The notes beneath the pieces are model-generated. The model was given only the letters and a program-made list of their open reading frames with translations, ran no database searches and was not told where the DNA came from. From contig CAMXCT020001382.1 in assembly GCA_947184155.2 (NCBI GenBank), positions 1 through 64,000 of the forward strand: a stretch of DNA of 64,000 nt. The letters are read 5' to 3'. The translations under genes and the position numbers were made by a program. This document shows, piece by piece, positions 4,623 through 54,436 of this stretch. Within the stretch, counting starts at the first letter, position 1; each line of letters starts with the position of its first letter. This DNA comes from Cladocopium goreaui. Lineage: Eukaryota > Sar > Dinophyceae > Suessiales > Symbiodiniaceae.

Positions 4623-5263
4623 TAGCGACCAATGCTGGGCCCAGGCTTGGAGATTTCAGATCGGATGGAAGGAGGCAAGAGATCGCAAGGGAACAGACAT
4701 GAACAGAGTCCTTTCTTGTGGAGAACCCAAACGATCAGCGCTTTCTCATGCAGGATGTGCAGTTGTATGCCAGTGTATTTTGATGTATTTTTGCCGTGAT
4801 TTTCCGTGGCTTGTTCAACTTCGTTCCGCTCTTTTCTACTTGTGCTTGTCTGATTTGCCAGATTTCCCCCCAAGGCCACTCTGCGTAGCTTTTGAGCACT
4901 GCAAACATCTATATACCTTTAAGCACGTCAGCACAATACATTTTGGGCCATAAGTATCGTACTCAGCAAGCCGTTTCACTTAGCAAACTACTGAACATTC
5001 TCAATCTTGTCCGCTTATCTCAACATCTCTATCTCGATTTGTCTGCACCAAGAAGCTCATGTCTAAACTTCCAAAACAGTGCACTAGCTGTCATTAGCTC
5101 TTGAGACTGCGCATTTGTTCCAAATTAAGGAACACAGCAAACGTTGCTTGGTGGTCGGAGTCTAAGGACCTCGGGGGAAGCAATCTGGTGCGGTCTGCTC
5201 CACGAAGAAGTAATCTGGAAACATCTGGAAACAGGATAGCCTGTGATAACCTGTGATAACAAT

Positions 5264-5308
5264 CTCATTATCTTCTCATTATCTTCTCATTATCTTCTCA
5301 TTATCGTC
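5264..5308. repeat. Eleven-base tandem repeat (CTCATTATCTT)n
   Basis: About four copies of CTCATTATCTT are followed by a variant ending in CGTCTCC. Two copies of CTGTGATAAC directly precede the array. Confidence 0.85.
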
Positions 5309-5717
5309 TCCATTTAAATGTGCCAAGGTGCCCCTGACTTGGGAGAGTTGGGGGAATGAAAACACAACATAATTCCAGCCAAGGAGCAGTGGACATCAAA
5401 ATACAAACTGTGATCAATGGAGAAATTGGAAGTTTTATTCTCACATAGTCCTGGAAGCGCAAGCTAGTCTGGATCACTGGAAGAATTGGATTTGCAATTT
5501 TTAAGACATTTCAAAACCACAGGCAGGCGATGAGAGGGAACATTGGAGCATTTGGTCAGAATCTGAGCTTGACCTACACACAAGTCATTCTGCCTTCCGA
5601 TGTCAGCCCACACATACAAACAAAACAAAATCAGTCGTTCAAGCCTTGCTGTATCCATGCACGGATTGCTGGTCTTACGAGTAGTCGAATAATCAAAAAG
5701 ATCCCACTGCTGAGTCA

Positions 5718-6370
5718 CACACTAGACAAGAATGGATCATTATATGATCCGGCAGGAACTGAATCCTGAAACATGCAGATTAGATACGAAACAATGAAAT
5801 TAACGATGCAGCCTACGAATAATGGAAGTACTTCAGAATGGTCATCGGGTTCAGAATCGCATCAAAAAGAATAAATAAACCAGCAATAATATCATCGGCG
5901 ATGTCTCGGCGAAGCTTAGCCAATAAATAAATAACTGTCGGCGACGATGGTGTCGGCGATCATGTAAACAGATTGTTCCAAGTATGTTTTCTACGTCCTT
6001 GCTCTGAGGAAGGTTCTGATGTAGCAAAAACCATTACATGGTTTCGGCGAAAATACAGATTGTGGCAACCGTGAAGAAATAAATAAATTGACATTGACAT
6101 TGACATTGAGGTTCTTGGGTTGAGCCTCTTCCCATCAGCAAACATGGACAATTGAATAGAAGCAAACCCTGAACAACCGGTGATCACAACAACGCAGGTA
6201 CGTCACTGGACGTCTCCAGTGATATCCTCAGGACACTGCAGAGAGCTTTGTTAAGTGGAGCTCTGCAGGCCTGCTCCACTCCCCTGCAAATGTGAAAAGA
6301 TTCCCGGCAAATGTGAACAGATTTGAATCAAAGAAGTTTTACATCTGTTCAGATGTTACACACACACACA
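5718..6370 (-). repeat. Pseudo-LTR, 3' copy relative to the coding strand
   Basis: It matches 18390-19043 throughout except for one inserted base (TCGCATC here against TCGACATC there). It contains (TGACAT)3, an AATAAATAAATA run, a stem-loop with an 8-bp stem at 6203-6222, a second 8-bp stem pairing 6236-6243 with 6261-6268, and a terminal (AC)n run at 6358-6370. No hammerhead ribozyme core (CUGAUGA with GAAA) was found on either strand. Confidence 0.9.
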
Positions 6371-6387
6371 CCCCGCGTGTAGCGGGG
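6371..6387. other. Perfect hairpin abutting the pseudo-LTR
   Basis: CCCCGC, a five-base loop GTGTA and GCGGGG form a perfect 6-bp GC stem directly next to the (AC)n end of the pseudo-LTR, on the inner side. It is absent from the outer side of the other copy at 19044, so it belongs to the internal 3' untranslated DNA of the element. Confidence 0.6.
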
Positions 6388-6480
6388 TTTGATTTTTTGG
6401 ATGAGCAACGCAGCAAAAGTTGGCAAGATTATTCAAATACAAAAACCGTTTCCGGTACTAATGTACAGAGCCGTGTTCAA

Positions 6481-7206
6481 TCACTCAGAAGGGAGGTGCG
6501 TCCCAGCTTGAAGTGTTTGGATCGCGTCACGGAAGCTCATGTCCTCAAGCATCCTCCACGTGTCGTTGAGTTCCCCCGATGCCATAGCAGCCCTCAAAGT
6601 GATGGAAAGTTGTTGGGACAGGTCCTGAATCTTCGGAGTAAAGTGGGTTGCCTCCGTAGGTGCCGTGGGCTCAATGGGAACATTGTGATAAGGGTGATGT
6701 CCATGTACTAGAGGAATCTCAAAGTGATGTCGCCAGTAATCCGCTGTGCGCAGGGACCACTCCCAGTTGCCCGAAAGACCGTAAAAGTAGTGCTCAGGAT
6801 CACGACATTTGGAAAGCCCGGACAAGGGGATCTCTTCAATGAATAGCGCCCTGGTATTGTTGGAGTGAGTAATGATCTTGAATTGGATCTGGTGAACCAC
6901 GCGGGAAGAGAAGTGAGCACGATGGAGGTAGTGGTATGCAGGACGTTGCTCCGTCGGAAAAGGGGCGTCAAAAGGTGCGGGGCCTGAATATGTATCAGAA
7001 TGGGTCGTGGTTCCAGTGTCGGTAGTTGTATTGTCAGCTGCTAAAGGTGCCGAAGGGGTCCCAGTAGTAGGATCAGGAAGACCAGAATGACATAGTGTAG
7101 AAGCCGGGCCGTCTGGTGCTTGATCAGGGTTGGTAGGAGCAAGTCCACGGTTGGGATTCGAAGGCCAAGCCAAGCCCGCCACGGTCGCGTCTCGTTTATG
7201 CTCCAT
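6481..7206 (-). CDS. Accessory ORF of the PLE, unknown function (241 aa)
   Basis: This is the last ORF of the element, ending about 110 bp before the pseudo-LTR. I start it at the ATGG of MEHKRDATVAGLAW, since the longer frame has no ATG upstream. The first third is rich in P, T, D and G and looks disordered. The rest is a compact region with FKIITHSNNTRALFIEEIPL and LRTADYWRHHFEIPL. The second motif resembles LRTTANQWRRYYDVPL in the ORF at 8248-8944, so the two may be diverged paralogues. No catalytic motif, membrane segment or signal peptide is seen. A GGGTGAAACGA motif sits directly upstream of the start; related motifs stand before two other ORFs of the element. Confidence 0.65.
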   Translation of the reverse strand: MEHKRDATVAGLAWPSNPNRGLAPTNPDQAPDGPASTLCHSGLPDPTTGTPSAPLAADNTTTDTGTTTHSDTYSGPAPFDAPFPTEQRPAYHYLHRAHFSSRVVHQIQFKIITHSNNTRALFIEEIPLSGLSKCRDPEHYFYGLSGNWEWSLRTADYWRHHFEIPLVHGHHPYHNVPIEPTAPTEATHFTPKIQDLSQQLSITLRAAMASGELNDTWRMLEDMSFRDAIQTLQAGTHLPSE

Positions 7207-7472
7207 GGGTGAAACGATCAGAAATGCGTGAGATGGTGCAACAAAAGCTGAGGTATCACGAAAATGCGAGAGTGAGCCCAGCCCAGGAATAAAAATAACC
7301 AAAATGATGATAAAAGTGAGGTCCAGTCATCAATCAAGTGGTTCAAGGTTCACGGAAAGGCAATAGTTCAAAGCCTAACAAAATGGAATTCCCAGAATCC
7401 TTCGTGTTGAAAATTGTCAACGGTAAAACGACAAACCCTCGAGCATTGTCTTTTTTGTGGCCAGTGAGCGTA
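7207..7472 (-). other. Spacer between element ORFs
   Basis: This 266-bp spacer has no conserved frame. It carries one GGTGAAACGA-like motif next to the downstream ATG and AT-rich stretches. Similar spacers of 100-200 bp separate most ORFs of the element. Confidence 0.4.
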
Positions 7473-8066
7473 TCAGGGCAGGATCACACCGGGAGTAACT
7501 TTGCTGCATCGTAGACGTAGTACGAAAGGCTGTGAGGTACCCGGGACGAGCAAGGAGGATTCAATGTAGTTGTACTGTCGGAGTCGCCATTCGGGTCGGT
7601 ATTCTTCCAGAAGCTGCATGATCGTCATCTCATTGGGGACTTGGAACGAATCACCTTCCAGGTCGCAATAGCGAAACTCCAAATTCGAAGGGTCAAACTG
7701 GATGTCCCATTGGGTCCTCAATCTTTTTGAAATGCGGAAACGTAGTTCTCCAATGGGAAGGACACCGGCTTCCACTGGTCCCATCTGACGTGACCAGGTG
7801 AACAGACCTTCAAGTTCGTAGCCAGTAACATTTTTGAGGTTTGAGCTAGCCAAAGCCATGTAGTGTTCACGGTCAGGTTCGCTGCGATGAGTCAGTTCCT
7901 GTAAGGGAGAGTAGTCAATCAAAATAAGGATAGGTCGGTATGGAGGAGGGTTCAAGTGACCAGGAAGGCCTCGGGGTCCAGCAAACCATCCAATGGTGCG
8001 GGTGCCCTCTGGTGTCTCAACCGTAGCTGTAGCGCGATATGGATGGGGCCGAGACGAATGAGCCAT
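7473..8066 (-). CDS. Accessory ORF of the PLE, unknown function (197 aa)
   Basis: The frame is open from further upstream, but the first convincing start is the ATGG of MAHSSRPHPY. The protein is a single compact region without low-complexity tails. It has RPILILIDYSPLQEL near residue 50 and LLEEYRPEWRLRQY near residue 150. The ORF at 9167-9838 has a similar layout (RPVIFQLDLKPMQQL and later LNWFYPRWKTHQ), so the two may be related. No enzyme motif is recognised. It is flanked on both sides by ORFs of the other small family. Confidence 0.6.
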   Translation of the reverse strand: MAHSSRPHPYRATATVETPEGTRTIGWFAGPRGLPGHLNPPPYRPILILIDYSPLQELTHRSEPDREHYMALASSNLKNVTGYELEGLFTWSRQMGPVEAGVLPIGELRFRISKRLRTQWDIQFDPSNLEFRYCDLEGDSFQVPNEMTIMQLLEEYRPEWRLRQYNYIESSLLVPGTSQPFVLRLRCSKVTPGVILP

Positions 8067-8247
8067 GGCGTTGAATGTCAGGTTTCGAGTATAAAGCGAA
8101 AAGCCCAAGCTGCAACATAGAAGGACAATGACCAAGGAATAAATCCCAAAAATTGGAAAATGGAGGGAAAAGGTATACCGAATGAGTAGTCACAAATCGA
8201 CGTGTAGTCACCGTACCTTTTCCGATTCCGACAAATAATGTGGTGTA

Positions 8248-8944
8248 TTACACACTGGAGTCAGACATATCCATCAGGTCCGTCTCGTTCGCTTCCAGTG
8301 GACCATGTACTTGTTGAGGAGGGATGGTGGGGCGATTGAGAGGTAAGGTACGTTGCAATGTTGCCGGTGGTGAAGAAGGTGGTGTAGACCGCCATGGTGG
8401 CCAATATAAAGAGGTGGTGGTTCCTTGAGAGTGGTGTTGGGCGGAACGTCCCCAGCATGACTGTAAAATATGGAGTTGGTCCGGTATCGCTTCGTACGGT
8501 TGGGAGACGTAGACGTTGGAGTGTTCCGGGTGTGGTAGAACAGGACCAGCAGTTGCCGTAGGGGAGGAGGATGATTGGAGTGGTACGTCATAGTATCGGC
8601 GCCACTGGTTGGCCGTGGTACGTAGGGTAGCAGCTGGTAGCACAATCGTTGGTGAGGTGCATGTTCTCCAGAAATGTTTCCACTGGTTTCCACGTTTCAA
8701 TACCATCAAGTGTCCTTTCCACGATCCAAAGTTCATCTGGACGAGTAGATAAAGGGTAGCTCAGCTTCTTGATGAAGACGGAATGGACGGTGGTTGAGGT
8801 TGGAATCATTCGCGCTTCACGGGGAATATATGATGCCGAGGTAGGATCATCCGGTGGTAGGTGTGGAACGAGGCCATGTGCGGATGTAGGTGAGGAACGG
8901 TTTGAGACAAATCGGGCATTGTCATCCGTGTTGGAGGTCATCAT
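8248..8944 (-). CDS. Accessory ORF of the PLE, frame broken once (about 230 aa)
   Basis: The gene starts at MMTSNTDDNARF (ATG at 8944-8942). Its first frame runs to about 8660 (ETFLENMHLT) and then closes at 8588. A second frame continues the protein from about 8660 (PTIVLPAATLRTTANQWRRYY) to the stop at 8248, ending in an acidic tail TDLMDMSDSSV. The break may be a frameshift mutation, a sequencing error or programmed shifting. The LRT-x-WR-x-PL motif links it to the 6481-7206 ORF. The remainder is rich in S, T and P. No function is recognised. Confidence 0.5.
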
Positions 8945-9166
8945 GTACAGTAGCAATAATATGATATCGAGATAAACTGAACTGAAGCCAAAAAGCCGTG
9001 GGGAAAGGTCAATGATGGAAGGACGAACCAAGAACATCGCAATATGTAAAGAGGAGAAGCAAGGGGGACAAAAGAAACCCAAAAACCGGGGTGGCGGACA
9101 TCATAACGAGTGCATTTTTCTTTTCTCATAGAGGTGAGCGTCGCCAAGTTCTATCTCCAAGGTTAA

Positions 9167-9838
9167 TCACTCGGCCGCTTTAGTGTATCTGGTGGCCGTG
9201 ACGAATGGATGCCCACGAGGAATCACTTGAACATGTACAGCGAAGCCTGTGTCTTGTGCATCTGGATGGGGTGTCAGCAGCAAAGGTGAACACTCACGAG
9301 TCGTGAAAGCATCGAGATGTTGATGAGTTTTCCATCTCGGGTAGAACCAGTTCAAAACGTCCAAAAGAGAATGAGGGAGGTCGTCAAGCATCTGAGCTCC
9401 TTGATCAGTATCAATCATCATGTAGAAATCTGACGCTGGTAGGTGTATCGACCATCGTTGTAGCAACGTGTCGGTGACCACAGTTTTGAGGTCTGAAACA
9501 AAATGACTGCGAGCATAGTCCGGGTAGATCACCTTGAACGTCTGAAACAGGCTATCGTAGGTGGCCGTAGGGAGGTTGCCCGCGACCTTAGGGGTCAAGA
9601 TGTTGTAGTAAGGGTTGCGGACGGCAAGTTGCTGCATCGGCTTCAGGTCCAATTGGAAAATAACCGGTCGATGGGGTGTCATAGGCGGAGTCCGGTTGGG
9701 TGGGTGCTGAAGTGACGAAGAACCCATAGCGGAAGACGATGCCCTTGTTGGAGAGCGTGAGCGTCGTGTAGGTGAGATCCTCTCGTTGGACATAGCTCTC
9801 AGTTGGCAATAGCGGTCCAGGTGAATGCGGAGAGACAT
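9167..9838 (-). CDS. Accessory ORF of the PLE, unknown function (223 aa)
   Basis: The ORF starts at a true ATG (9838-9836). A second ATG, MSNERISPTRRSRSP, follows 15 residues later. The first 50 residues are basic and serine-rich with an RRSRSP stretch, a plausible nuclear localisation or RNA-contact tail. The body begins with RPVIFQLDLKPMQQL and includes LNWFYPRWKTHQ, comparable to motifs of the ORF at 7473-8066. No catalytic signature is visible. Confidence 0.6.
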   Translation of the reverse strand: MSLRIHLDRYCQLRAMSNERISPTRRSRSPTRASSSAMGSSSLQHPPNRTPPMTPHRPVIFQLDLKPMQQLAVRNPYYNILTPKVAGNLPTATYDSLFQTFKVIYPDYARSHFVSDLKTVVTDTLLQRWSIHLPASDFYMMIDTDQGAQMLDDLPHSLLDVLNWFYPRWKTHQHLDAFTTRECSPLLLTPHPDAQDTGFAVHVQVIPRGHPFVTATRYTKAAE

Positions 9839-10017
9839 AATAAATGGCTAGCGGGTTATATGATACGACGTGTCAAAAGTCAATGGGGCAACAACGCCCG
9901 AGGTTGTGAAGATCAACGAAAGGAACAATGATTCACAAAGAAAAGGCCAACTGGTTGGTGAGACTGTGATACAGTGCCGCAAACTACCTTTTTCTTGTGG
10001 TTCGCATATGTCGTTGG

Positions 10018-10650
10018 TCAGCCAAGTTTGTCTTTGATCTTATTCCACATAGAGCGAACGTCTTCCTCGGACTTGCCCATCTTGGTCGAGACCACCTTCC
10101 ATGAGAATCTAGACTTCTCGTCAGCCTTCAAGGTGCGTAGTTTCTGTTTGTCTTCGGAAGTCCAGAGTGACAGTGGGCTCGAGGAGCGGGATCGGGATTG
10201 GTCACGTCGGCGACGACGTTTAGCGGGCGCCTTTGGAGCGGATTTGGCTTTCTGTTTGCGCTTCGGCGGTGATGGTGTTCTGGTAGAAAGCTTCGAGGGT
10301 GCAGGTAGGACATCAGGTGACGGAGCGGCAACATGGTGGTGTGGCTCAGGGAGATGAGTTTCCACCAGATCCTCCATAAGTGTCTCTTCCTCCAACATGT
10401 CCGGTGATGGGATGGGGGCATTGTCAATAAAGGCGTTGGTCTGGTCCGAGTAGTGTGGACGTAGCCCATCAGGTTGATTCCATACGTCTGTACTGGGAAG
10501 AGGAGTAGGTTCAATGTTGGGAATGAGCGTGGGTGGTAGTAGCGCCATTGCTCGATGTAGTAGAAGGTAAGCATGGTGAACATCATGAAGAAATTGAAGA
10601 AACACTGGTTCTTGAATCGGAATTGACGTTGTAGGAGGCGAGGAAGCCAT
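10018..10650 (-). CDS. SANT/Myb-like DNA-binding protein encoded by the PLE (210 aa)
   Basis: The start is the ATGG of MASSPPTTSIP; the longer frame upstream lacks an ATG. Residues 1-140 are acidic and proline-rich. A strongly basic block KAPAKRRRRRDQSRSR follows near residue 155 and looks like a nuclear localisation signal. The last 50 residues fit a single SANT/Myb-like helix-turn-helix: LWTSEDKQKLRTLK, then FSWKVVSTKMG, then DVRSMWNKIKDKL, with the spaced tryptophans typical of the fold. Such domains bind DNA or histone tails. In this element it could help target chromatin or control element expression; that is inference. It follows the reverse transcriptase by 171 bp. Confidence 0.75.
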   Translation of the reverse strand: MASSPPTTSIPIQEPVFLQFLHDVHHAYLLLHRAMALLPPTLIPNIEPTPLPSTDVWNQPDGLRPHYSDQTNAFIDNAPIPSPDMLEEETLMEDLVETHLPEPHHHVAAPSPDVLPAPSKLSTRTPSPPKRKQKAKSAPKAPAKRRRRRDQSRSRSSSPLSLWTSEDKQKLRTLKADEKSRFSWKVVSTKMGKSEEDVRSMWNKIKDKLG

Positions 10651-10821
10651 GATAATGCGTCGAATATGGGCCGACAAATAAATGAAGCCGAGTTTGAGGG
10701 TAAGCCAGCTGGAAACACTACTCTAAGATCATATAAATTCACATGTGGTCCAAATAGGTGAAACGTTCAGCAAGATGTGAATAATGAAACGTAAGTACCA
10801 GCGGCAGGCCGGTTCAGGTTT

Positions 10822-12277
10822 TTACCACAATGAGGGAACGTGCAAATATTGACGGATCGGCTTGGCAGCAGCGACAAGGTCGGACTCGGTAAAACCTGCA
10901 AATCTGTACAAACGGTGCAATGCGGCAAAACCTCGTGTTCGTTCGTGTGCAGGGTGCGCGCATTTGGCGACCAGAAATAATCGTGAAACAAAACCCGAAA
11001 GTTGGACGGCCAAAGGTGATGCGGAGAATGGCGCCATGACCTGGTTGAAGTCGCGTGGAGGGCTGTAGCGAAGGGCAAAAGGCTCGAACTCGATGCAAAA
11101 ACCCAAGAACTCCTGGTCCGGTTCCGTTTCCAAAATGATAGGATGGCCGTAGAACTCCGGGTGGAGGAAATTGGCGAAGCAGATTTCGTAGTCCCAGCAG
11201 GGGTCCGACAAGCACAGTCTGTTGTCCACATAGCGAAGGAGGCGAGCTGTAAGATCCATGGTGCTGAGGGTGGTATGGTAGGTTCGGTACCAGATTTCTT
11301 CAGAGAGTGCGACAACCATCATGCATAATGCTGGACTCAGTGGGGAGCCCATAGGGGATCCCCGGATTTGTTCAAAAACCGTAGTGCCAATAGAGAATTG
11401 AGTCATCTTCAAAGACATAAGGATGATGCGTTCAATGTCCCGAATGAAGATCTTCCTGGTCACATTCAGTGTACGGCATGTGCGGCCTTTGACTACGTCC
11501 CCTGTGGTGTTGCCCGGAGTTGCCTTCACGGAGATGATCTCGTCAGGGTCGGTGTTCATAAGGGTCGAGAGAAACTGCAAGGTCAGTCGCCAGCTAGCGA
11601 TGAAGCGGTCAGTGTCAATGCTTGTGAAGAAACCCGCAAGATCTTGGTTGTGTATTCGTGGAGTAGGGAGTGAATCAAAGTCGGTGTCCTTGAGGAGCTT
11701 GATGAGGTCAAATACATCACCCTTTGCCAGGTTGTGGGGAAACGCTTGGGGTAGAAGGTTGTAGATCAGCTTGGCGGTGCAGTTCAACATAGGCCGGAAA
11801 GGTGCCGTGAAGAAGCTGACGATGGGTCGCCCGGCATTGAACTGTTTCTTCCGTTTGGGGAGAACATAGGCATTCGGTAGGTCTCGTCCGGCACCAAGTG
11901 CCCATGGGTATGCTTTGCCAAATTGGCGGTTGATCTCGGCGATGGTCTTCTCGATGATGTCACTCGAGCTTTGCTCCAACTTGCGAAATACCAACGGATC
12001 GGCGAAGGTGGTGGTGAGGCACTGGAAGTAGAGTACGGGGCAGTAGATTCGTAGGGATGTAGCGCGCTTGTCCTCGTTGTGGAAGACGGCTTCTGGAAAG
12101 AGACGTTTGAAGCGGCCGATGTCTTTGTGAGTGATGTGGTTGTTGAGGGTGTGGTAGTGGGATTGAATAGAACGATGCCAGAGCTCATCAATATGAGACT
12201 TTTGTAAGGGAGGGAGTGAGTTCCGGGTAGTCCACGTCCGCAGAGCCAGGCGAAGCGATGTCTGGATTTCTTTGGAA
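10822..12277 (-). CDS. Reverse transcriptase domain of the PLE
   Basis: The frame has no ATG until 11994 but is open and protein-like from about 12277 (SKEIQTSLRLALRTW, then SHIDELWHRSIQSHYH), so it is read as the continuation of the endonuclease frame after a shift. Counting from the Met at 11994, the motifs are AGRPIVSFF (54-62), DLAGFFTSIDTDRF (118-131, motif A), RGSPMGSPLSPAL (211-223, motif B') and RYVDNRL (254-260, motif C). The MGSPLSP block and extra sequence between A and B' suit PLE-type enzymes. Motif C has YVDN where YxDD is expected, so the second catalytic aspartate is asparagine. The protein ends at IRQYLHVPSLW without an RNase H domain, as in PLEs. It would make cDNA at the endonuclease nick. 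Confidence 0.8.
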
Positions 12278-13592
12278 GGTGGAAGATTTTGTTTTGAAGT
12301 GAGCCAGTCGCAATGGATGTGTGTGGGCCATCCTCGAAATGTAGGTTGTCGCCGTCCAGGACCAAGTGGTGATCGGGTTGGGGAGCATGAAGGGCATGAG
12401 GTTGCAAGGCATCACAGGTACATTTTGGGGTTTCGCCATCAGCCCATTTTGTAGCGGCTTCTTTGTGATTGCACAAGCTATCCATCACCGAGGGGAACTT
12501 TGTGAAGACAATCGCCGTGGAAGGAGTCTGCAATGTGGTGTTATAACGTCGAGTTTGATGAACGTGGAAGGTGAGCAGCCGTCGAAGATCCCGAGTCCAA
12601 TTGGGGCATAGTAACCAAGGTGCACGAAGAGGAACCGGTTTTCTGACTCGTTTGGCCTTCCAGAAGGTCAAAGCTCGGTCAATGGCATTGATGGCGTACG
12701 ACCTTTGGGGTTCTCCCAGATTGTTGGCAAGGCGTCGGATAAAATAGCAGCCTTGGACTCCAATTTCGTTGGATCGGAGTTTCTTCTCCATGTGGAAGCG
12801 TCTGACGGAGTTACTGCCCAAATCCTGAATAATCTCCCACAGTTGTACTCGTCGATGGAAAAGGGGACTATGAAGAGCATGTCTAACATGATGAGGTGTA
12901 GATCGCCAGCGAAGTTTCCGCCACAAGGAAAATGCTCCAAATTGTCGGGAGGCGGAAAATTTGGTACGTGCAATGAGTCCCTTTCGGCAATTGAAAAACT
13001 GGTAAATGAACGGAGTATTCAATCGAGGTTGCCACAATTGAATTAAGGCCTGTTCCAAGGCCCAAAAATTGGATTTATTGGTGTAGATCGGGAAAACAGA
13101 CCACATCCAGAAGTTGTCAAATCTGCACCAAAACCGTAAGGCAACTTCGGCCAACACGAATTTATGTTGTTGTACTTGCAGAAATTTCCGATAGCGAGAG
13201 TGTTCGCGGTCCAAAACAAACGAAGACGTGGAACCAACATAAAACTTGGGTTGAAAATTAGCAATGTGGCAAAACCGAATATACACCGCCTGAGGGTGCT
13301 TGAAACACTGGAGGGCGACTGACAAGTCATCCCAGGATCTGCAAAAGAAAATACTCTGCATCGGAGTGCCTTTGAGCAAGGCTTGGAGTTTCGGATTGGC
13401 CCGTGGATGCAATAACACATATTGGCCCATCAATACCGTTTGGAGCATCCGAAAAGCAAAAAAGACATCAACAGAAGGGGACAACGTAAAAGGAGTCAAT
13501 AATGCAAGAACAAGAATACAGGAATGAGCCACGGCCAAAGTTCGCATAATGTTGGCTGCTTTTGAGCCAGGTGATTTCAAATACGCTGCTAG
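12270..13592 (-). CDS. N-terminal GIY-YIG endonuclease and CxC linker of the PLE
   Basis: This frame continues the Gag-like frame directly after a single UGA and has no ATG of its own near its start. Counting from the Leu codon at 13580, the GIY-YIG features are VYIRFC (99-104), FYVGSTSSFVLDREH (113-127, with R125 and H127) and ALEQALIQLWQPRLN (174-188, with catalytic E176 and the terminal N). These cut DNA to prime reverse transcription. A short linker with KCTCD (C387, C389) follows, matching the CxC motif that joins endonuclease and RT in N-terminal-endonuclease PLEs. Near residue 435 (about 12275) the protein-like sequence moves to the -1 frame. This frame stays open to 11784 but turns into a serine/threonine-rich shadow. 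Confidence 0.78.
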
Positions 13593-13598
13593 TCAGGA
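13586..13598 (-). promoter_or_regulatory. Candidate stop-codon readthrough site UGA-CUAG
   Basis: On the minus strand the Gag-like frame ends ATG CAC TCC TGA and continues CTA GCA GCG TAT in the same frame into the endonuclease. UGA followed by CUAG is the best-known context for efficient readthrough in eukaryotic and viral genes. The next frame has no nearby ATG. Selenocysteine insertion is an alternative, since some Naiad PLEs are known to encode selenoproteins. Confidence 0.6.
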
Positions 13599-14897
13599 GT
13601 GCATCAATAACGCCACAGTCATGACCTTGAGGACGACTTCATCCGTGGAGGCCCCTTTGTGCTTGCATGGGTCGATACCCATAGCCACGCTTGCGCGTTG
13701 AATAGTCTTTGAAGCATCATCGGGTTGGTTTTGCCACCATTCGTTGACCTTCTCCAAGTTCTTCTCCAAGATGTCCTGCTTGGGCTGTGGTAGTTTCAGG
13801 GCTTTCACCCACTTTGTGTATTGTGTGTCAGACAATGATGTGGGTTGATTGTCAACGAGCCAAGTGTTCACCGATCCCGGGGAGATAAGTAGCGTCGAAG
13901 GATCAAAGGTCGTAGAGGCGGCAGGTTGTCCTTGAAGTGCGCGTCCAATCGGTGTCGTGGCCGGAGTAGAGCCCTGAGGTGCCGTACCCGGTGAGGTAGT
14001 GGTGGTCGATTTGACCTTGGCCAGTTCTGCCTCCAATTCGAGAATGCGTTGTTGGCTCGCCACATCCGCAGATGGTTGAGCCGGGAGCCAAGATTGGAGA
14101 AGTTGAGCAACGTCTTTGGCCATGTTTTGAGTTGCTTCCTTCTGGTTGAGACATTGGCCTGCTGAGCGAGCTCGAAAGGTAGCAAGTTTGTCCAAATCCA
14201 CGTTGCGGGTGCGTAGTTGTGATACCAATTCAGCCACAAATACTGTAGTGCCGATGTTGTCAAAAGGGAGGACGAAGGTTTCTCTTCCGTATGCAACCCG
14301 ACGGAGCCAGGTATTGTGCAAGCCCTGGTACAAGAACTTCCAGAGTGGGACTTGTAAAGGATCCATCCCTTCAATGTCCTTGTAGCTGGAAAATCTGCTC
14401 TGTCGGATTCTGGAAGGGAAATCCAGACCATTGATTTTGTTGGAGTCGTGGAAGTCGACATCAGGTTTCCATTGCTCCACTGGTGGGATTTCGATTGGTC
14501 TGCATGTATATCCGTCGTTGACAGTAGAACTTGCTCCCGGGGATGACATAGGCCTCGGCGATCTCGGTGTAAAAGGATGACGTTGAGGTGCAAAGTTGGC
14601 ATTGTTGGGAGGTGTCTGTGAGCACGGAGGCGGTGTGGGTGGAAAAGGTGCCGTAGGTGGAGTCCATGGTGGGCGTGTTGGGAACGATGGAGATGTAGGT
14701 GGCGGAGGCGGTATTCCGGACGGGTTCCAGAAAGGTCGATGGGTCGCCATGGCATAGTGCATCGGGCCACGGAACGCAGGTACTGCTTGGTGCCATCCAT
14801 GTTGATGACGGGGAGGTGTGCGAGAGCAATCCGGCTGGGAAGGAGGAATTCCATTGACATCCGAATTGAACTGGGAGATCAGGTCCTGGGACGCCAT
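13593..14897 (-). CDS. Gag-like ORF of the PLE (434 aa)
   Basis: I choose the ATGG start of MASQDLISQFNSDVNG because the longer frame to 15071 begins without ATG. The first 150 residues are rich in P, H, R and T. A folded region follows (PVEQWKPDVDFHDSNK, then FSSYKDIEGMDPLQVPL) and a predicted helical stretch with LEAELAKVK. The C-terminal 80 residues (YTKWVKALKLPQPKQDI, VNEWWQNQP, VAMGIDPCKH) look like a compact alpha-helical domain. No CCHC knuckle is seen. Position upstream of EN-RT and the single in-frame UGA at its end point to a Gag-like structural role, with a Gag-Pol fusion made by readthrough. The role is inferred from context, not from homology. Confidence 0.65.
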   Translation of the reverse strand: MASQDLISQFNSDVNGIPPSQPDCSRTPPRHQHGWHQAVPAFRGPMHYAMATHRPFWNPSGIPPPPPTSPSFPTRPPWTPPTAPFPPTPPPCSQTPPNNANFAPQRHPFTPRSPRPMSSPGASSTVNDGYTCRPIEIPPVEQWKPDVDFHDSNKINGLDFPSRIRQSRFSSYKDIEGMDPLQVPLWKFLYQGLHNTWLRRVAYGRETFVLPFDNIGTTVFVAELVSQLRTRNVDLDKLATFRARSAGQCLNQKEATQNMAKDVAQLLQSWLPAQPSADVASQQRILELEAELAKVKSTTTTSPGTAPQGSTPATTPIGRALQGQPAASTTFDPSTLLISPGSVNTWLVDNQPTSLSDTQYTKWVKALKLPQPKQDILEKNLEKVNEWWQNQPDDASKTIQRASVAMGIDPCKHKGASTDEVVLKVMTVALLMHS

Positions 14898-15243
14898 GAT
14901 GTAGACGGGGCCACGAGATAATAGGTCAAATAAGCTCGAACTGCCGGTTGAAAGCTGCGGAAATTGTCCAGGTGAGACAAGAGTAATGTGTGATTGAAAT
15001 GGTGTGAAACATAATACGTGATACCAGTAGGTGAAACGTAAAGTGAAGTTCGAATCTGGCGCAAGGTTCAAATATCATGAGCATGCAGCAGTTCCCAAAC
15101 CTTTTGAGGAAGAAGTGGCATCAATACCGAATGTCGGGAGAAGCATTGTTACTCCAAAATGATCGGGCAAGGCCACTAGGCTCACTGTATCGCAGTCGTA
15201 GAATAGTCGATACTTGTTCCGGTGCTCCTCAGAGGTAAAGAGT

Positions 15244-17856
15244 TCACCAACGAGATCTGGAGTGATACGTCGAGTGTCGAGAATGAGGTCGGCCTTCACG
15301 GTGCTGGTCTCGAGAGTGGCCTTCATGATAGGAGGAACGGCGATCTCGGCGGCTGTAGGTTGAATTGTCCCAAGGGGCAGTGTCGTGCCAAGATCGGCGA
15401 GCATGATCTCGAGAACCAGAAGCAGCTGTCTCGTGGTGGCCAGGTGTATCTCGAGAGTCGTCTGGAGGTGGTTCCAAAAGTTCTGGGGCATTGGCAGGAG
15501 GGTCAGGTCGTACTGGACGTGCATGATCATCAGGATGTTCCGTGGGTGCATTGGTCTCCGCCGTCTGGTGTGTGATCAAGCCCGGGAAAACCGAGTGAGT
15601 GGAGGCGACGTAGCATATGGATGCGGCGCTGGAGTTCATAGCCGTTGCATTGTCTTTGCCCTTGGCTATGCCCGCAAGGTTGCACAAGCGTTGAATTTGG
15701 TCATTTCCTCCAGCTAGGGCACGGATGCATTTGGGTGAGCGGCAAATGGCCAGCAGGCCTGATGGGTTTTGTCCTTTGCCAATTTTGTAGAGCTGAGAGG
15801 TACAGATCTTGACAGCATAGCCGGGTAGGTTGTCGATGTCCGCGATCTCAGAGGACATACCGAAGAATCCGTAACATGGGTATTGAGTTGGCATGCCGGC
15901 TTCGTTTTTTGTCCAAGTTGCCGGGCGAATGCAGTCTTCCGCGAGAATTTTGGCAACTGTTTCCCAACTCGTTTTGTGATAGATCAGGTAGGTGCCCATG
16001 TGTTCGCCACGATAGATTGGTTTCTTTTTCAATCCTGTGGGCACCGTGATGGTCAGCAGGTTCTCTGGCTCGATGTAGAAGGCTTGTGTTTGCCTCGCAA
16101 GCTCGATGTCCAGTAAGTTGGATTGTGCAAAGGCCCTGGCAATGTTTTTGACGGTGGCTTGGCTAGCTTTGATATAAATACGTTGGTTGTTGACGGTTCG
16201 GTATGGTTGAGCCAACTGGTGGAACATCTCGTCAACGAACTGGTTGAAGAGCTGCAAGATAGCCGGGGTCAATGATTGGCGTAGGGGCACAACATGATCG
16301 GGCCCAAGCTCCGTCAGGCAGCGGACCCTAAGGGGGTCATTGGCCGCCTCAACCATTTCACTGAGGTCGATGTCATTCGTGTCGAACTTGGTGATCGAAA
16401 TTGTATCTGCAACCTCAGAATTTTCACTGTCACCGTCAGGGACGCGGAAGGACACAGCGCCAAGTGGTGCTGAAGTATGGGCTGGTGGGTTGGTTGGTGG
16501 TTCCGGTTGTGGTGGATCGGCAGGAGAATTGGGTCGAGCAGTGTGGTGATGGTAGTCGTCGGTGTAGTGGCTGTCTTTCCATGTACCCCTGGTGTCATCA
16601 GCGTCGGGAATGGGGATGTAGTTCGGATTGGATGGGTTTGCAGCTGGTCGAAGTATGACTTCACGGCCTCTGGATTGGTGACGTGGTGTCTCGGAACGTG
16701 GTCGCGGGTGAGATCGGTGACGTCGAGGAACCACGGGAGAGCGGTGTCTTGGTGGTGATCGTCGTCTGTATGGAGATGGGGTTCTGCGGTCCTTGGCATG
16801 TTTCGTGGATGACCGATGACGAGGAAGAGGAGAACGAGGTCGAGCTGCACGGTGGGGAGAGTAGCGAGGGTGATGGGAACGTACAGAAGGTCGATGGGAA
16901 CGTGATCTTGGAGTCCTGGAACGTGGTCGGCGTGTTGTTGGTGGTGGAACATGTAGTTGGTGAGGAGGATCGATGGTTGGAGCTTGGACAATACGAGGGT
17001 CCGGAATATCAGGTTCGGTGGGTCTGGCTTTCGGTGCAGGTGGAGGAGTGGCGATCAGTGGTGGTGTAGTTGTTGGTGGTGGTGTCTGTGGAATAGGGTT
17101 CGGTGGAGGTCCATCTTGTTGGAGAAGTAGCTGACGTTGTTCTTGGGCTCGTTGGGAATCCATGATCATTTGTTGCTGAGCTTGAATAAATCGAACCGAT
17201 TCCGCAAGTTGCTGTGCAGTGGAGCCCAACGCTACCAGTTCAGGTGACACGGATGAAGTCGGTGCTGCCGTGGGTGTTGGTGGTGTAGAAGGAGGAGGGA
17301 CTTTTGGAGCTGGTCGACGTGGTCGATCCGGTCGCTTGTCAGAGCGAAGCCTGGGAGCCGCTTTAACTGCTGGGGCCCGTACTGAAGGTTCATCTGGAGG
17401 GACCATCGATGCGTCCGTCTGTAATGGTGGTTGAATATGGTGGGGTGGGTATGGAGAACTGGGCAAAGGTGTCGGTGGCGTAGTCGATGTAGGTGGTGTA
17501 GTCGATGTAGGGGATGGAGTAGGCCACGTGGGTGGAGCGGTGGGTGCCGTAGGCGATGGAAAGGTCGACGGAGCGGTGTGCACCATGGTGGTTTCAGGGG
17601 CCAAAGGCGAGGGCATAGTGGGAACGAACTGTGGGCCTGGTACTGCATGAGGAGCCGGAGTCAATGAGGTGAACGGCAGCGAGGTTGGGGCCGATGTGGA
17701 CGGCATGAGCGAAGCTGAAGAAGACCATGTAGGATGCAATGCCGAAGGATGTCCAAATAGATGTGCATTTTGCGACGATTGCTGCCACGTCGAAGATGGG
17801 TTCGCAGGCTGCGGTGGAGCAGGCCATGACGTCGGAGGGTTGGTCCACGGATACAT
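15244..17856 (-). CDS. SR-rich first ORF of the PLE with a possible ART-like domain (870 aa)
   Basis: It starts at ATG 17856-17854 and is the first ORF of the element. Residues 1-180 are rich in P, T and S. A coiled-coil-like stretch with AQQLAESVRFIQAQQQM lies near 215-235. Residues about 305-400 are an arginine/serine domain (RSRTPRSRSHRPS and similar), as in SR splicing factors. The folded part, about 500-760, contains YRGEHMGTYLIYHKTSWETV and then YPCYGFFGMSSEIAD. The YHKTSWETVAKIL pattern followed by a CYGFFGMS strand resembles the H-Y core of ADP-ribosyltransferase or KptA-like folds; this is a weak visual match. The C-terminus is again rich in R, S, D and H. A second frame is open from 15551 to 15075 and reads protein-like near its end (ELFTSEEHRNKYRLFYD), so the true 3' end may differ. 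Confidence 0.65.
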   Translation of the reverse strand: MYPWTNPPTSWPAPPQPANPSSTWQQSSQNAHLFGHPSALHPTWSSSASLMPSTSAPTSLPFTSLTPAPHAVPGPQFVPTMPSPLAPETTMVHTAPSTFPSPTAPTAPPTWPTPSPTSTTPPTSTTPPTPLPSSPYPPHHIQPPLQTDASMVPPDEPSVRAPAVKAAPRLRSDKRPDRPRRPAPKVPPPSTPPTPTAAPTSSVSPELVALGSTAQQLAESVRFIQAQQQMIMDSQRAQEQRQLLLQQDGPPPNPIPQTPPPTTTPPLIATPPPAPKARPTEPDIPDPRIVQAPTIDPPHQLHVPPPTTRRPRSRTPRSRSHRPSVRSHHPRYSPHRAARPRSPLPRHRSSTKHAKDRRTPSPYRRRSPPRHRSPVVPRRHRSHPRPRSETPRHQSRGREVILRPAANPSNPNYIPIPDADDTRGTWKDSHYTDDYHHHTARPNSPADPPQPEPPTNPPAHTSAPLGAVSFRVPDGDSENSEVADTISITKFDTNDIDLSEMVEAANDPLRVRCLTELGPDHVVPLRQSLTPAILQLFNQFVDEMFHQLAQPYRTVNNQRIYIKASQATVKNIARAFAQSNLLDIELARQTQAFYIEPENLLTITVPTGLKKKPIYRGEHMGTYLIYHKTSWETVAKILAEDCIRPATWTKNEAGMPTQYPCYGFFGMSSEIADIDNLPGYAVKICTSQLYKIGKGQNPSGLLAICRSPKCIRALAGGNDQIQRLCNLAGIAKGKDNATAMNSSAASICYVASTHSVFPGLITHQTAETNAPTEHPDDHARPVRPDPPANAPELLEPPPDDSRDTPGHHETAASGSRDHARRSWHDTAPWDNSTYSRRDRRSSYHEGHSRDQHREGRPHSRHSTYHSRSRW

Positions 17857-18389
17857 CGCTCACGAGGAATAATGACAAATAATGGGATTGTAACAACAGG
17901 ATTGTAACAACAGGATTCAGTTCCTAGAGCTACTATTCGTGCAATTGTGCCACAACAGGCCCGCAGTCAAGTCGTGCCCCAATGGCATCAAACGGCTTTC
18001 AAATTCCAGCGAATTAGATGCACAAAATGTTTCACCTCAACAGAGAACCAAAAGGAAAGGAAAACCACACCTGAAAGTCGTGTGCCTGCCTGGTCCATTG
18101 TCGTGTAATGTTGCAAAATGTCGCTGTGAGAGTGCTGCAGAATAAGAGGTTTCTGAATGTTCGGCACAACTTCACTCTGCAGAGGAGCATTTCACTAGGT
18201 TCACAAGGACCACAGCAACGGCGGGACACTCAAAACGGCTGATAAAACGCAAGGCAGGCTGTTCCACTTGACTTAAACGAATTACTGAGTTGAAAAATGT
18301 GAATTCAGAAGTCAAGTCTGTCAACACTCACCCTGACAAGGGTTGCCTCAAATGGCTCCATGGCACCATGTCGGAGCCACCATGGAAAT
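17857..18389 (-). other. 5' untranslated DNA of the PLE
   Basis: This 533-bp segment lies between the upstream pseudo-LTR and the first ORF. It holds two copies of GGATTGTAACAACA in tandem (17883-17910) and, next to the pseudo-LTR, an inverted repeat GGCTCC...GGAGCC at about 18354-18378. No coding frame is convincing. Confidence 0.5.
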
Positions 18390-19043
18390 CACACTAGACA
18401 AGAATGGATCATTATATGATCCGGCAGGAACTGAATCCTGAAACATGCAGATTAGATACGAAACAATGAAATTAACGATGCAGCCTACGAATAATGGAAG
18501 TACTTCAGAATGGTCATCGGGTTCAGAATCGACATCAAAAAGAATAAATAAACCAGCAATAATATCATCGGCGATGTCTCGGCGAAGCTTAGCCAATAAA
18601 TAAATAACTGTCGGCGACGATGGTGTCGGCGATCATGTAAACAGATTGTTCCAAGTATGTTTTCTACGTCCTTGCTCTGAGGAAGGTTCTGATGTAGCAA
18701 AAACCATTACATGGTTTCGGCGAAAATACAGATTGTGGCAACCGTGAAGAAATAAATAAATTGACATTGACATTGACATTGAGGTTCTTGGGTTGAGCCT
18801 CTTCCCATCAGCAAACATGGACAATTGAATAGAAGCAAACCCTGAACAACCGGTGATCACAACAACGCAGGTACGTCACTGGACGTCTCCAGTGATATCC
18901 TCAGGACACTGCAGAGAGCTTTGTTAAGTGGAGCTCTGCAGGCCTGCTCCACTCCCCTGCAAATGTGAAAAGATTCCCGGCAAATGTGAACAGATTTGAA
19001 TCAAAGAAGTTTTACATCTGTTCAGATGTTACACACACACACA
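18390..19043 (-). repeat. Pseudo-LTR, 5' copy relative to the coding strand
   Basis: It is 654 bp and matches 5718-6370 with one inserted base. It contains the same stems (18876-18895 and 18909-18941), (TGACAT)3 and terminal (AC)n. Directly outside, at 19046-19063, GACCCA and TGGGTC form a 6-bp stem; this is flanking DNA. Transcription of the element on the minus strand would have to start in or near this copy. Confidence 0.9.
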
Positions 19044-21085
19044 GAGACCCAACCGCATGGGTCACCAAGTACAGGACAAGCACAATTAGGTTCCAGGGCC
19101 AGGAATGTTTGTTTGGATCTCAAGTGATACATCGGATATCATCGGTAAGTATACTCTGGAATAAGATTGCCATCGATGCTGCCTGATAATTCCCACGCTG
19201 ACCCGAGGGCTCTTGGTCTGGTGCGCTCTGGCATAGCCTTGAGGGTCGAAGAGCCTGGCAAATTCCATCACCTGAGCTGCGCAACGAAATCAATCACTGG
19301 AGCATGACCTTCGTTCACCAAGAAAACACTGCATGATTATAATTGAACAATATTGAACAGATAGATCTCAACAGCTTGAAACATCTTCAGATGCGCCGGG
19401 GAATGACATGAGTATTCAAGAAAGCACCACAAGAAAACAGAAAAAAAGATTGCTATCTGCAAATGTGGGACGCGGGGCAATGGGATGCCCAGCATCTGCT
19501 GGGCCTCGAGCGCCTGGGTCAAGTTGTAGGCTCATTGTTGAGGGCCGAGCCAGGAAAAATTCATGAAAATGGTTAGCTGATCTGTTAGCTGTTCCGATGT
19601 GCTCAGCTGCCGTTCATCGCCTCTCCTACTGCTCCCCATTTGACGATGCTGCAAGAAACGGCAGAAATCCTTTAGACGAGAACTCTCTAGCGCTGTATCA
19701 AATCCTCTGATGCGGTGAAATGGCAGTGTCTTTATCAATCCCTCTCTTCCAGCACGCTCTGAAAAAAATCCGTCTGGATTCGAAACAACAATCCGTCCTA
19801 CCTGTTTGTTCTGTCGCCCAGGCGCATTGAAAAAGTGCGGTGCTTGGCCAGGTTTCCATTCCCCAACTGCTTGCCATCGATTGTAAATCGCCACCCAGTT
19901 CGCAAGTGAACGCAATGCAAGCGTCTTACAAGCCGCTGGACACGGGGCTGTCAAAACCCTGTCCCAAAACCTTGGCCCACCAGTGCCAAGAAACAGGGTG
20001 AAACTGTTGAAACTGGTGAAAAATGATAAAAATGCAAAACAGCTCTTTGAAATGACTGGAGAGGGAGCAACATCCTCAGTCTTGGAAGATATTAAACACT
20101 CTTACAGAATACTTCAACTGCTATGTCGGTGTTCTTTCAAAATCATGTATGACCCTGTAGACAATCCACACAACCATGGGAAAAAAAGATCTGGCCAAGT
20201 GCAATTTGTCCTCTGAACAATTTGGGGGGATTCCTTGGGGGCATGTCTCTGATGCCTCTGCATCTTACCCAAATTGAGAAGGTCCCTTTGTGGCTGAAGA
20301 GAGGGATGCCTCTTTAACCCACTCCCAAATCCTTGCACAATTCGCGAAGTTCTCGGTCAGAAACTCAGGCAGCCAGTCCAAAAATGGTTCCTACCCAGCG
20401 AGCATGAAGGAAATTCAATATACATCTTCTACATTCTTATACGATGTGTGCATGTGCTGTGAGATTCAGCCCATTCTAGAAGCACCAGAAATGATTGGTC
20501 AAGTTTCCACCCACCATTTGTGTTCCAACCTGTTGCAATTAAGACTTCAAAAAAATACCTGCAGCTTTTGGGCCTTATCACTTTCAAAACCTGCATCGGC
20601 TGCAGCTTCTCACATTCTGGTCCTCCTCTTGGATCGCTTCCCAAATGTTTGTCATGGACATGCCCACGAAGGACAATCGCCGCACCGAGATCTGAGGCTC
20701 TGCATCAGTCCTTCAGCCCCACGACATGTAGCGTTCGCCCATATTCATCCATATTTGCCATATCCTCTGTATGTGCCGAATATTCATCCGCTCCAGGATT
20801 GACATGCCAAAGGAGTTCCGGTGTTTGATGTAACAACACCTCTCAGAACGAAGATAACAAAGGTATTCCTTGAAGACTTCCTGTTGAAAGCACGGCATGT
20901 TGCGTGTGGTGCAATTCATGTCCATTCTGATTCATCACTTGCATTAGAAAGCTGTGCACGAAACTCGGCCAGTGGGGAACCTATGCATTCCGGTCAGGTG
21001 TGCAGGTCCAAACCCACCAAACACTCCTGCTGGTCATGCTCATGCTGCTTGAGGGCCGCTGCCGCTCCTAGCAGGGCATTAAGAG
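19044..21085. other. Gene-poor DNA between the PLE and the 464-bp array
   Basis: Open frames of 70-170 codons exist on both strands (for example minus 19532-19954 and plus 20290-20802), but none has a recognisable motif or a convincing partner exon. No RNA gene or clear mobile element is seen. Confidence 0.4.
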
Positions 21086-22821
21086 TTTCCGAAAAGAAAT
21101 GCTGATTCTGTCAGATCTGTCAGACATCTTGATGCATCTTGTCTCATCCCGTGCCGGGACGGCAAAACACAATGTCCTGCCCATCGTGCTCTGGCATTGC
21201 AAGCCTGGGTGCTCCTGTGCACAACAAGTAAAGGAGCAAAGAAACCTTGAATTAAGTGGTAGTTCCCAGAAAACGCAAAAGAATGGCCAATGGACCAACA
21301 ACATTCGGATTATGGCCTACCATGACCTGGACAGAAAACAAAGGGACAGTCAGCGCTACCAAGACCTTTGCAAGTGCTAGCGGCAACCAAACCCATCCAC
21401 GGTGCAACTGAAACACACTTTGGTCGCTGCCGAATTCGCTCCTTTCGATGCCTTTTTGCTGGAAAGGCTCTCGGAACGCATCTGGGTGACTGGCACGGAG
21501 TCCTTGCCAAATTCGCCCGAGACGGAGTCGAAAAAATCCGACTCAGCGTTTCCGAAAAGAAATGCTGATTCTGTCAGATCTGTCAGACATCTTAATGCAT
21601 CTTGTCTCATCCCGTGCCGGGACGGCAAAACACAATGTCCTGCCAATCGTGCTCTGGCAATGCAAGCCTGGGTGCTCCTGTGCATAACAAGTAAAGGAGC
21701 AAAAGAAACCTTGAATTAAGTGGTAGTTCCCAGAAAACGCAAAAGAATGGCCAATGGACCAACAACATTCGGATTATGGCCTACCATGACCTGGACAGAA
21801 AACAAGAGGACAGTCAGCGCTATCAAGACATTTGCAAGTGCTAGCGGCAAACAAACCCATCCACGGTGCAACTGAAACACACTTTGGTCGCTGCCGAATT
21901 CGCTCCTTTCGATGCCTTTTTGCTGGAAAGGCTCTCGGAACGCGTCTGGGTGACTGGCACGAAGTCCTTGCCAAATTCGCCCGAGACGGAGTCGCAAAAA
22001 TCCGACACAGCGTTTCCGAAAAGAAATGCTGATTCTGTCAGATCTGTCAGACATCTTGATGCATCTTGTCTTATCCCGTGCCGGGACGGCAAAACACAAT
22101 GTCCTGCCCATCGTGCTCTGGCATTGCAAGCCTGGGTGCTCCTGTGCACAACAAGTAAAGGAGCAAAAGAAACCTTGAATTAAGTGGTAGTTCCCAGAAA
22201 ACGCAAAAGAATGGCCAATGGACCAACAACATTCGGATTATGGCCTACCATGACCTGGACAGAAAACAAAGGGACAGTCAGCGCTACCAAGACCTTTGCA
22301 AGTGCTAGCGGCAACCAAACCCATCCACGGTGCAACTGAAACACACTTTGGTCGCTGCCGAATTCGCTCCTTTCGATGCCTTTTTGCTGGAAAGGCTCTC
22401 GGAACGCGTCTGGGTGACTGGCACGAAGTCCTTGCCAAATTCGCCCGAGACGGAGTCGCAAAAATCCGACACAGCGTTTCCGAAAAGAAATGCTGATTCT
22501 GTCAGATCTGTCAGACATCTTGATGCATCTTGTCTCATCCCGTGCCGGGACGGCAAAACACAATGTCCTGCCCATCGTGCTCTGGCAATGCAAGCCTGGG
22601 TGCTCCTGTGCACAACAAGTAAAGGAGCAAAAGAAACCTTGAATTAAGTGGTAGTTCCCAGAAAACGCAAAAGAATGGCCAATGGACCAACAACATTCGG
22701 ATTATGGCCTACCATGACCTGGACAGAAAACAAGAGGACAGTCAGCGCTATCAAGACATTTGCAAGTGCTAGCGGCAACCAAACCCATCCACGGTGCAAC
22801 TGAAACACACTTTGGTCGCTG
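21086..22821. repeat. Tandem array of a 464-bp unit, about 3.7 copies
   Basis: The unit recurs with a period of 463-464 bp. For example GAAAAGAAATGCTGATTCTG appears near 21091, 21555, 22018 and 22482. Copies differ by only a few bases. The array ends sharply at TTTGGTCGCTGC (22821) before unrelated sequence. Both strands carry a frame of 100-137 codons in every unit, with few stops in four of six frames, so coding cannot be assigned. It may be a satellite or a short tandem gene of unknown type. Confidence 0.9.
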
Positions 22822-28360: not shown

Positions 28361-28379
28361 TGCGCTGATGCAGCAACCT

Positions 28380-44637: not shown

Positions 44638-45282
44638 TAATCTGCAATCAAACTCGACAATCCCTCTAATGACCATGCAGATTACAACTCAGCCATTTCA
44701 TGCCATGCCAAGCACAAACTCTCTCTTGATCATCCTAAGGTGCGTGACGCACACCTTAACAGATGATTCACACTTCCGACAAAGATCACTCACTACTACC
44801 CCAAGATGCGTGCCGCACATCTTGACAGGTAATATGTGATCGACCAAACTTCAATGTCTCAGACAAAACAAAAATAATACAAACTTGTGGCAAACCGCAA
44901 ACTCAATCCAAATCCAACTGCCAATGCATGCACAACCCTTCACAAAACTGCAAAACAGATCACAGTGGTTTCCGCGCGTATAAAACCCATAGACATGTAA
45001 TGCAGCAAAAATGAAAACTCATGCAAAGCTCGTGACAGCTGACTGAAAACCACACAACCTGAATTCCACAAGTCCAAGTTCCGTCCAGTCCGAAATCGTC
45101 CAAAACTATGAAGTTCCAAGACATCCCAAAATTGTCATTTCACTCCAATCTCAGCTTGACAGCTCTTTCACCACAGCTTTTGCATTTCTCCTCGCAGCTA
45201 ACGTCGGCTTCCAAGCCTAGCACTACCACCCGGCCTGGAACCATTGCAAAACCTATACATTGGGAGGATATTTCCTCTGTAC
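44638..45282. other. Spacer inside the second element
   Basis: No gene. Three related palindromic motifs occur, of the type AAGRTGCGTGMCGCACAYCTT (near 44739-44759 and 44803-44823), inverted around GCGTG(A/C)CGCAC. Confidence 0.45.
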
Positions 45283-54431: not shown

Positions 54432-54436
54432 GATTG

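Follow-up and report, generated by a model that had tools for sequence, protein, structure and literature searches.

The window, that is, the whole stretch of 64,000 nucleotides of Cladocopium goreaui DNA analysed here, belongs to contig C1382 of a 1.17-Gb assembly of 6202 contigs. At positions 5718–19043, eight genes lie on the minus strand between two pLTRs in the 5'-to-3' order H, G, EN-CxC-RT, E (SANT), D, C, B, A, with spacers of 45–346 nt between the ORFs downstream of a 533-nt leader. We consider, with a probability of about 0.9, that this region is a copy of an abundant Penelope-like element (PLE) with multiple genes, which has pLTRs at both ends and carries its endonuclease (EN) N-terminal to the reverse transcriptase (RT). 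Its features are given below.

5718..6370, minus strand: 3' pLTR; the outer edge starts with CACACTAG; 99.85% identical to the other pLTR
6481..7206, minus strand: ORF A, 241 aa from Met (7206); weakly similar to C; dN/dS 0.23–0.60
7473..8066, minus strand: ORF B, 197 aa from Met (8066); homologous to D; dN/dS 0.16–0.66
8248..9037, minus strand: ORF C, Met at 9037; two frames in the window copy; dN/dS of the halves 0.15–0.80
9167..9838, minus strand: ORF D, 223 aa, Met at 9838; the most constrained small ORF, dN/dS 0.03–0.17
10018..10650, minus strand: ORF E, 210 aa, Met at 10650; C-terminal Myb/SANT domain; dN/dS 0.13–0.28
10822..13547, minus strand: EN-CxC-RT, Met at 13547; a 923-aa open frame in intact relatives, two frames in the window copy
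13593..14897, minus strand: ORF G, 434 aa, Met at 14897; conserved core, no known domain; dN/dS 0.07–0.13
15244..17856, minus strand: ORF H, 870 aa, Met at 17856; Pro-rich and SR-rich, with a conserved C-terminal domain; dN/dS 0.19–0.41
17857..18389, minus strand: leader of 533 nt between the 5' pLTR and ORF H
18390..19043, minus strand: 5' pLTR; at its outer end the hairpin ACATCTGTTCAGATGT, then (CA)n

A mechanical count gives ten frames in the window copy, which become eight genes once the EN/RT and C halves are joined. Since other copies mostly have EN-RT in one frame and C as one ORF, we regard the unit as eight genes. The EN frame (11784–13592) and the RT frame (10822–12411) of the window copy are different frames, and so are those of the ORF C halves (8588–9100 and 8248–8760). 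ORF C is unbroken (245–332 aa, stop to stop) in 8 of the 8 other copies listed, and EN-RT is a single frame in most other copies read, with further breaks in C868, C1831, and some others; several fetched copies also have stops or frame breaks elsewhere among their genes. The window copy as assembled is not intact, EN-RT and C being broken, and intact EN-RT relatives exist.

The original prediction, a single PLE of 13 kb and eight genes in which the endonuclease is N-terminal, is supported by both recurrence and selection. The whole-assembly search for full-length copies with the same ORF set found seven besides the window copy (C535, C2024, C868, C5855, C1831, C5898, and C838), whose pLTR pairs are 12.5–12.7 kb apart and whose interiors are collinear with the window at 76–99% identity, with unaligned gaps in C868. 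The best 40 of 2315 candidates were scored in the pLTR search of the genome, with matches also on further contigs such as C5918, C6032, C920, and C237, and the recurrence of H, D, C, B, and A was assessed in the fetched copies. Four interrupted or deleted copies were read besides: C1922, which is interrupted within H; C4314, which is without about window 6603–9473 (A–C and part of D); and C4591 and C925, which have a common deletion of about window 8629–12971, where the RT part is gone. None of the 11 other copies read carries EN-RT alone between the repeats. The flanks differ from locus to locus, except for those of C4591 and C925. These two copies (L021 and L022) have the same internal deletion, the same 3' flank, and identical pLTRs, suggesting a duplication or haplotigs.

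In Nei-Gojobori comparisons of the window with other copies, dN/dS never reached 1 for any ORF where a ratio was obtained, with 0.02–0.24 for EN and 0.07–0.20 for RT, and the loosest values were those of A, B, and C. Five comparisons with a dS of zero gave no ratio, namely A in the comparison with C4314 (39 codons, dN 0.045) and, in that with C5855, C, its second half, D, and E. With these ratios below 1 and seven other full-length loci sharing the boundaries of the unit, the ORFs are not chance. The computed comparisons thus show a repeated element whose boundaries and gene order are fixed and whose ORFs evolve under purifying selection.

We examined the EN-CxC-RT gene in alignments of 15 rows (A1) and 69 rows (A2) drawn from 120 listed EN-RT matches. 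P0001, a 908-aa close relative of the window family, has EN-type residues at 89–177 and RT motifs from about residue 565. EN thus precedes RT within one ORF, which is the N-terminal-EN arrangement, both in P0001 and in the frames of at least 920 aa that hold 57 of the 82 RT matches scored in the genome (best 82 of 1799 candidates); frames of at least 860 aa hold 65 of the 82. Matches starting only at residue 40–42 of the window RT frame make up 79 of the 82, which is what a joint EN-RT frame at those loci would give; in the window, C6133, and C1800, the match begins at residue 1–2. The suggestion that the element is possibly active therefore holds for the family, with its 57 long frames, but not for the window copy with its broken EN-RT and C.

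Glu165 and Asn177 (P0001 numbering) are invariant in the 15 rows, and Tyr89, Tyr103, Gly105, and Arg114 are conserved at 90% or more. We take these residues to be the GIY-YIG pattern, which was also examined in five EN slices. The conserved residues are consistent with the proposed GIY-YIG endonuclease, but no Pfam match to GIY-YIG was obtained for EN, and much of the EN part is at low confidence in the predicted model. Between EN and RT, Cys376 and Cys378 form a CxC motif that is invariant in the 15 rows and present at 90% or more in the 69 rows. This motif at this position defines the N-terminal-EN PLEs. RT motif C reads RYVDNR (P0001 residues 772–777) in 15 of 15 rows, and is thus YVDN, not YVDD, with the second catalytic-type Asp replaced by Asn. 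When an RT model of a public relative was searched, telomerases filled the top 13 rows of the Foldseek list and the top 15 of the VIA list; TM-scores by query length were 0.26–0.34 in the 10 best Foldseek rows, with large rmsd. These model comparisons indicate that the RT shares ancestry with telomerase RT, a hallmark of PLEs.

Among the other genes, ORF E matches Myb_DNA-bind_6 with an E-value of 0.0016, below the cut-off, and a Pfam scan of nine window ORFs at E ≤ 0.1 gave nothing beyond Myb and RVT_1. ORF G had been called Gag-like, a label that found no support, as there is no credible Pfam or PDB match for it. No domain matches assign roles to G, H, or A–D. The alignments used for H (A3) and G (A5) comprise 29 of 43 H matches and 16 of 120 listed G matches, respectively.

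The genes also stay together when they are searched one by one. ORF E lies 102–116 bp downstream of RT on the same strand in 70 of the 82 scored RT matches. Searches with G alone (best 97 of 7811 candidates scored) placed E within 6 kb downstream in 78 of the 97 matches, most often at 2880–2885 bp, and RT within 3 kb downstream in 45, most often at 1304–1305 bp; one or the other was found in 81. In the best-score lists, including that of E alone (best 150 of 1817 candidates), no partner appears for 9 of 82 RT matches (no G or E), 16 of 97 G matches (no RT or E), and 44 of 150 E matches (no RT or G). Since the lists hold best scores only, these missing partners are not evidence of absence. Database clusters of public proteins were compared by the sizes of their longest contigs, using 118 of 120 listed RT rows, 43 H rows (42 distinct sizes), and 97 of 120 listed G rows. 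Exactly equal sizes occurred five times for RT–G, twice for RT–H, and twice for H–G; in shifted-size controls the means were 0.09, 0.06, and 0.03, and no count exceeded 1. The RT partners in these pairs are as distant as 65%. A distant predicted protein, P0225, has an H-type domain followed by G (hhalign 98.7%; BLASTP 35%, E 4e-19). EN-RT relatives among the listed public proteins range from 98% down to 41% identity, and just one of the 120 listed EN-RT matches carries a species name, that of Durusdinium trenchii (62%), which agrees with a dinoflagellate lineage without proving it. We consider that the element probably represents a dinoflagellate lineage of multi-gene, N-terminal-endonuclease PLEs.

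The near-identity of the two repeats, with a one-base difference, was read correctly from the start: the window pLTRs are direct repeats with 99.85% identity over 654 columns, and their sole difference is a 1-base gap. The outer edge of the 3' pLTR is constant within a base or two across the other copies read. Within-copy pLTR identity is 95.8–100% in 11 copies, and in 10 of the 11 the pLTRs match their own partner at least as well as that of any other fetched copy; in 8 of the 11, the best pLTR from another fetched copy is only 83.0–96.2% identical. A pLTR of C1831 is nearer to C925 than to its own partner. The within-copy likeness argues that, in most copies, the pair arose with its own insertion. 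In C5855 (L017 and L018), the interior is 99% identical to the window, yet the middle of the pLTR does not align, and pLTR segments seem to have been exchanged between the subfamilies.

Head-to-tail tandem remnants adjoin the C535, C5855, and C4314 copies, each abutting another pLTR. Inspection of the flanks by eye revealed CA-rich repeats at C5898, C2024, C1831, C838, and C4591/C925, a short CA run at C868, and no microsatellite at the window copy. In this by-eye tally, the sites resemble the microsatellite bias of N-terminal-EN PLEs. No telomere-type repeats were seen by eye in 60–70 bases of flank.

Other repeats occur elsewhere in the window. Direct repeats of 1.43 kb at 40617–42045 and 49156–50586 are 99.65% identical and 8.5 kb apart, and 40617–50586 may be a further element bounded by LTRs or pLTRs, with few evident coding regions. 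Two direct repeats of 1.7 kb, 95% identical, lie nearly adjacent at 25032–28361, and a tandem repeat with a 464-bp unit (3.7 copies, 97%) lies at 21085–22822. On the minus strand, 53139–60912 contains three long ORFs of 440, 1367, and 882 aa, of which the 1367-aa ORF matches AAA_19 weakly (E 0.0021, below the cut-off), and 61621–62877 contains a 418-aa ORF with ankyrin repeats (Ank_2 above the cut-off).

The genome also contains a second family with the same order. P0079, an EN-RT relative with 43% identity, has at least 50 loci (best 50 of 1865 candidates), and the second-family EN-RT proteins of C605 and C5903 are 46% and 44% identical to P0001. In C605 (L029 and L032), 471-bp repeats of 99.4% identity are 10.9 kb apart. 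Between them lie an H-like ORF (hmmsearch E 5.8e-11), a G-like ORF (3.3e-73), EN-RT in a 975-aa frame, a SANT ORF (6.8e-5; Myb_DNA-bind_6 24.9 bits, above the cut-off of 22.9), and two further ORFs, one recognized by profile B (2.4e-4) and the other by profile A (1.1e-7); C605 has no good match to profile D or profile C. C5903 (L030), as far as it was read, has H-like (4.6e-4), G-like (2.7e-78), EN-RT, and SANT ORFs (7.9e-6; Myb 30.0 bits, above the cut-off) in the same order. G2 (best 123 of 1472 candidates scored) lies upstream of EN-RT2 in 42 of the 50 scored EN-RT2 matches, and 8 of the 50 are without G2 in the list. Segments of the second-family pLTR recur in the pLTR of the window element, among them the outer (CA)n end. 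That the H-G-EN/RT-SANT order is kept at 44–46% EN-RT identity indicates that the additional genes are long-standing components of the element, not late acquisitions. The window element belongs to a multi-gene PLE family in which many close copies have an intact EN-RT, and the genome contains one or more other families organized in this way. The C-terminal domain of the second-family H (L029 1302–3473, L030 6117–7715) reads HGTT...EGKIRPANW, which is reminiscent of an ADP-ribosyltransferase signature; no profile support for ADP-ribosyltransferase was found in this H.

The four small genes of the window family resemble one another in pairs. D and B are homologous by hhalign (90%, E 1.6e-6, 128 columns). 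Profile B scored 14.2–34.4 bits on 10 D sequences against at most 9.1 for 2000 shuffled sequences, and profile D scored 8.4–23.5 bits on 10 of 11 B sequences and -0.6 on the remaining one, against at most 5.7 for shuffled sequences. A and C are less clearly alike (16.5% by hhalign, E 0.0015, in a set of 21 tested pairs). Of 11 C sequences, 5 scored above the best of 2200 shuffles (10.9 bits) with profile A, and of 12 A sequences, 9 scored above the best of 2400 shuffles (8.4 bits) with profile C. Judged from these sequence comparisons, the window family probably doubled a two-gene cassette into D-C and B-A. The D-B half of this duplication is solid, and the C-A half is probable. Doubling is the simplest reading since C605 has one B-like and one A-like ORF.

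A working model of the element would begin with a full-length RNA from the 5' pLTR, which may be packaged by the SR-rich H and by G in a ribonucleoprotein or ORF1-like role. The EN domain would nick the target, often CA-rich microsatellite DNA, and the telomerase-like RT would prime on the nick and copy the RNA; the pLTR pair may be produced within a single insertion event. For this element, we infer EN nicking, RT copying, and all later steps. The SANT protein E may contact DNA or chromatin for targeting or transcription, and the D-C and B-A proteins may have a selected accessory role. Our guess for the expression of eight ORFs from one RNA is trans-splicing of a polycistronic RNA, which would be natural in a dinoflagellate. 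Splice-acceptor and shared-signal tests on the spacers gave weak or non-significant results, and a search for relicts of a spliced leader was negative.

The same region could be read as a plain PLE with EN-RT as its single ORF that has caught host genes between the pLTRs, since PLEs are able to move host DNA between terminal repeats, as described in excerpts of PMC6431247. However, the ORF set is repeated in seven other full-length copies under purifying selection, its order is kept in a family only 44–46% identical in EN-RT, and copy flanks that differ everywhere except at C4591/C925 speak against spread by one segmental duplication; we consider such transduction extremely unlikely. An LTR retrotransposon-like element that gained a PLE RT would explain why the repeats within a copy are nearly identical, as LTRs are. 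It is nevertheless highly unlikely, because the RT is nearest to telomerase, the nine ORFs have no protease, RNase H, or integrase domain (Pfam, E ≤ 0.1), and the tandem remnants beside C535, C5855, and C4314 are head-to-tail, as in PLEs.

The accessory genes themselves invite the idea that this PLE has become virus-like, as an endogenous retroelement that keeps a PLE-type RT and forms particles from the products of its accessory ORFs. Their proteins are gene-dense, non-overlapping, and conserved, the cassette is duplicated, and the listed relatives of H and G are nearly all without a name and look like the same proteins. On the other hand, the ORFs tested show no capsid, envelope, or movement-type domain, and IMG/VR holds no relative by EN-RT, and we regard this idea as quite improbable. 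We favor the multi-gene, N-terminal-endonuclease PLE. A bolder form of it, which we offer tentatively and consider rather unlikely as a whole, is an old, vertically maintained PLE lineage, probably of dinoflagellates, with a core set of six genes (H, G, EN-CxC-RT, SANT, B-like, and A-like) that later became eight by cassette duplication and with accessory proteins that build an element-specific particle. If so, particle-building accessory genes would be the PLE counterpart of Gag and Env in LTR elements. The element makes three questions accessible: the set of accessory proteins required for mobility by a telomerase-like RT, the way in which a retroelement with eight cistrons is expressed, and whether particles have evolved in PLEs as in LTR elements.

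Among known systems, the Naiad/Chlamys clade is marked by EN before RT, CxC between them, pLTRs with tandem copies, and microsatellite insertion. The window element shares EN before RT, CxC, pLTRs, tandem copies, and the lack of a detected hammerhead ribozyme (none at E ≤ 1 in window 5200–19600), and several insertions of its family are in CA-rich repeats. N-terminal-EN PLEs are not known to carry a hammerhead ribozyme, so the negative search is not counted against this clade. The Naiad/Chlamys PLEs differ in size and content: those said to have been described by Craig et al. in 2021 with an N-terminal GIY-YIG endonuclease are reportedly mostly single-ORF elements of a few kb, whereas the families here have 6 to 8 ORFs in 11–13 kb. 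Titles and abstract openings in the open-access literature gave no report of multi-ORF endonuclease-bearing PLEs, and novelty is thus unproven.

Canonical EN-bearing PLEs (Penelope/Poseidon) resemble the window element in the telomerase-like RT, the EN (putatively of GIY-YIG type in the window element), and the terminal repeats. They differ in that EN is C-terminal, with RT N-terminal in Penelope (excerpts of PMC1564403), and in having a single ORF in 4–6 kb (excerpts of PMC6431247). According to the same excerpts of PMC6431247, PLEs are compact, with one or two ORFs in 4–6 kb, and the giant exception is the endonuclease-lacking Terminons of rotifers. These Athena PLEs of bdelloid rotifers are, like the window element, large and multi-ORF, with accessory proteins and head-to-tail arrays, and the excerpts describe for them an RT gene without EN, attachment at telomeres, hammerhead ribozymes, and accessory GDSL, DEDDy, and Rep proteins (PMC6431247). 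In contrast, no GDSL, DEDDy, or Rep domain was found in the nine window ORFs, no hammerhead was detected, and an EN-like residue pattern without a profile match lies inside the RT ORF. The conserved H-G-EN/RT-SANT order indicates that multi-gene PLEs exist also with an endonuclease.
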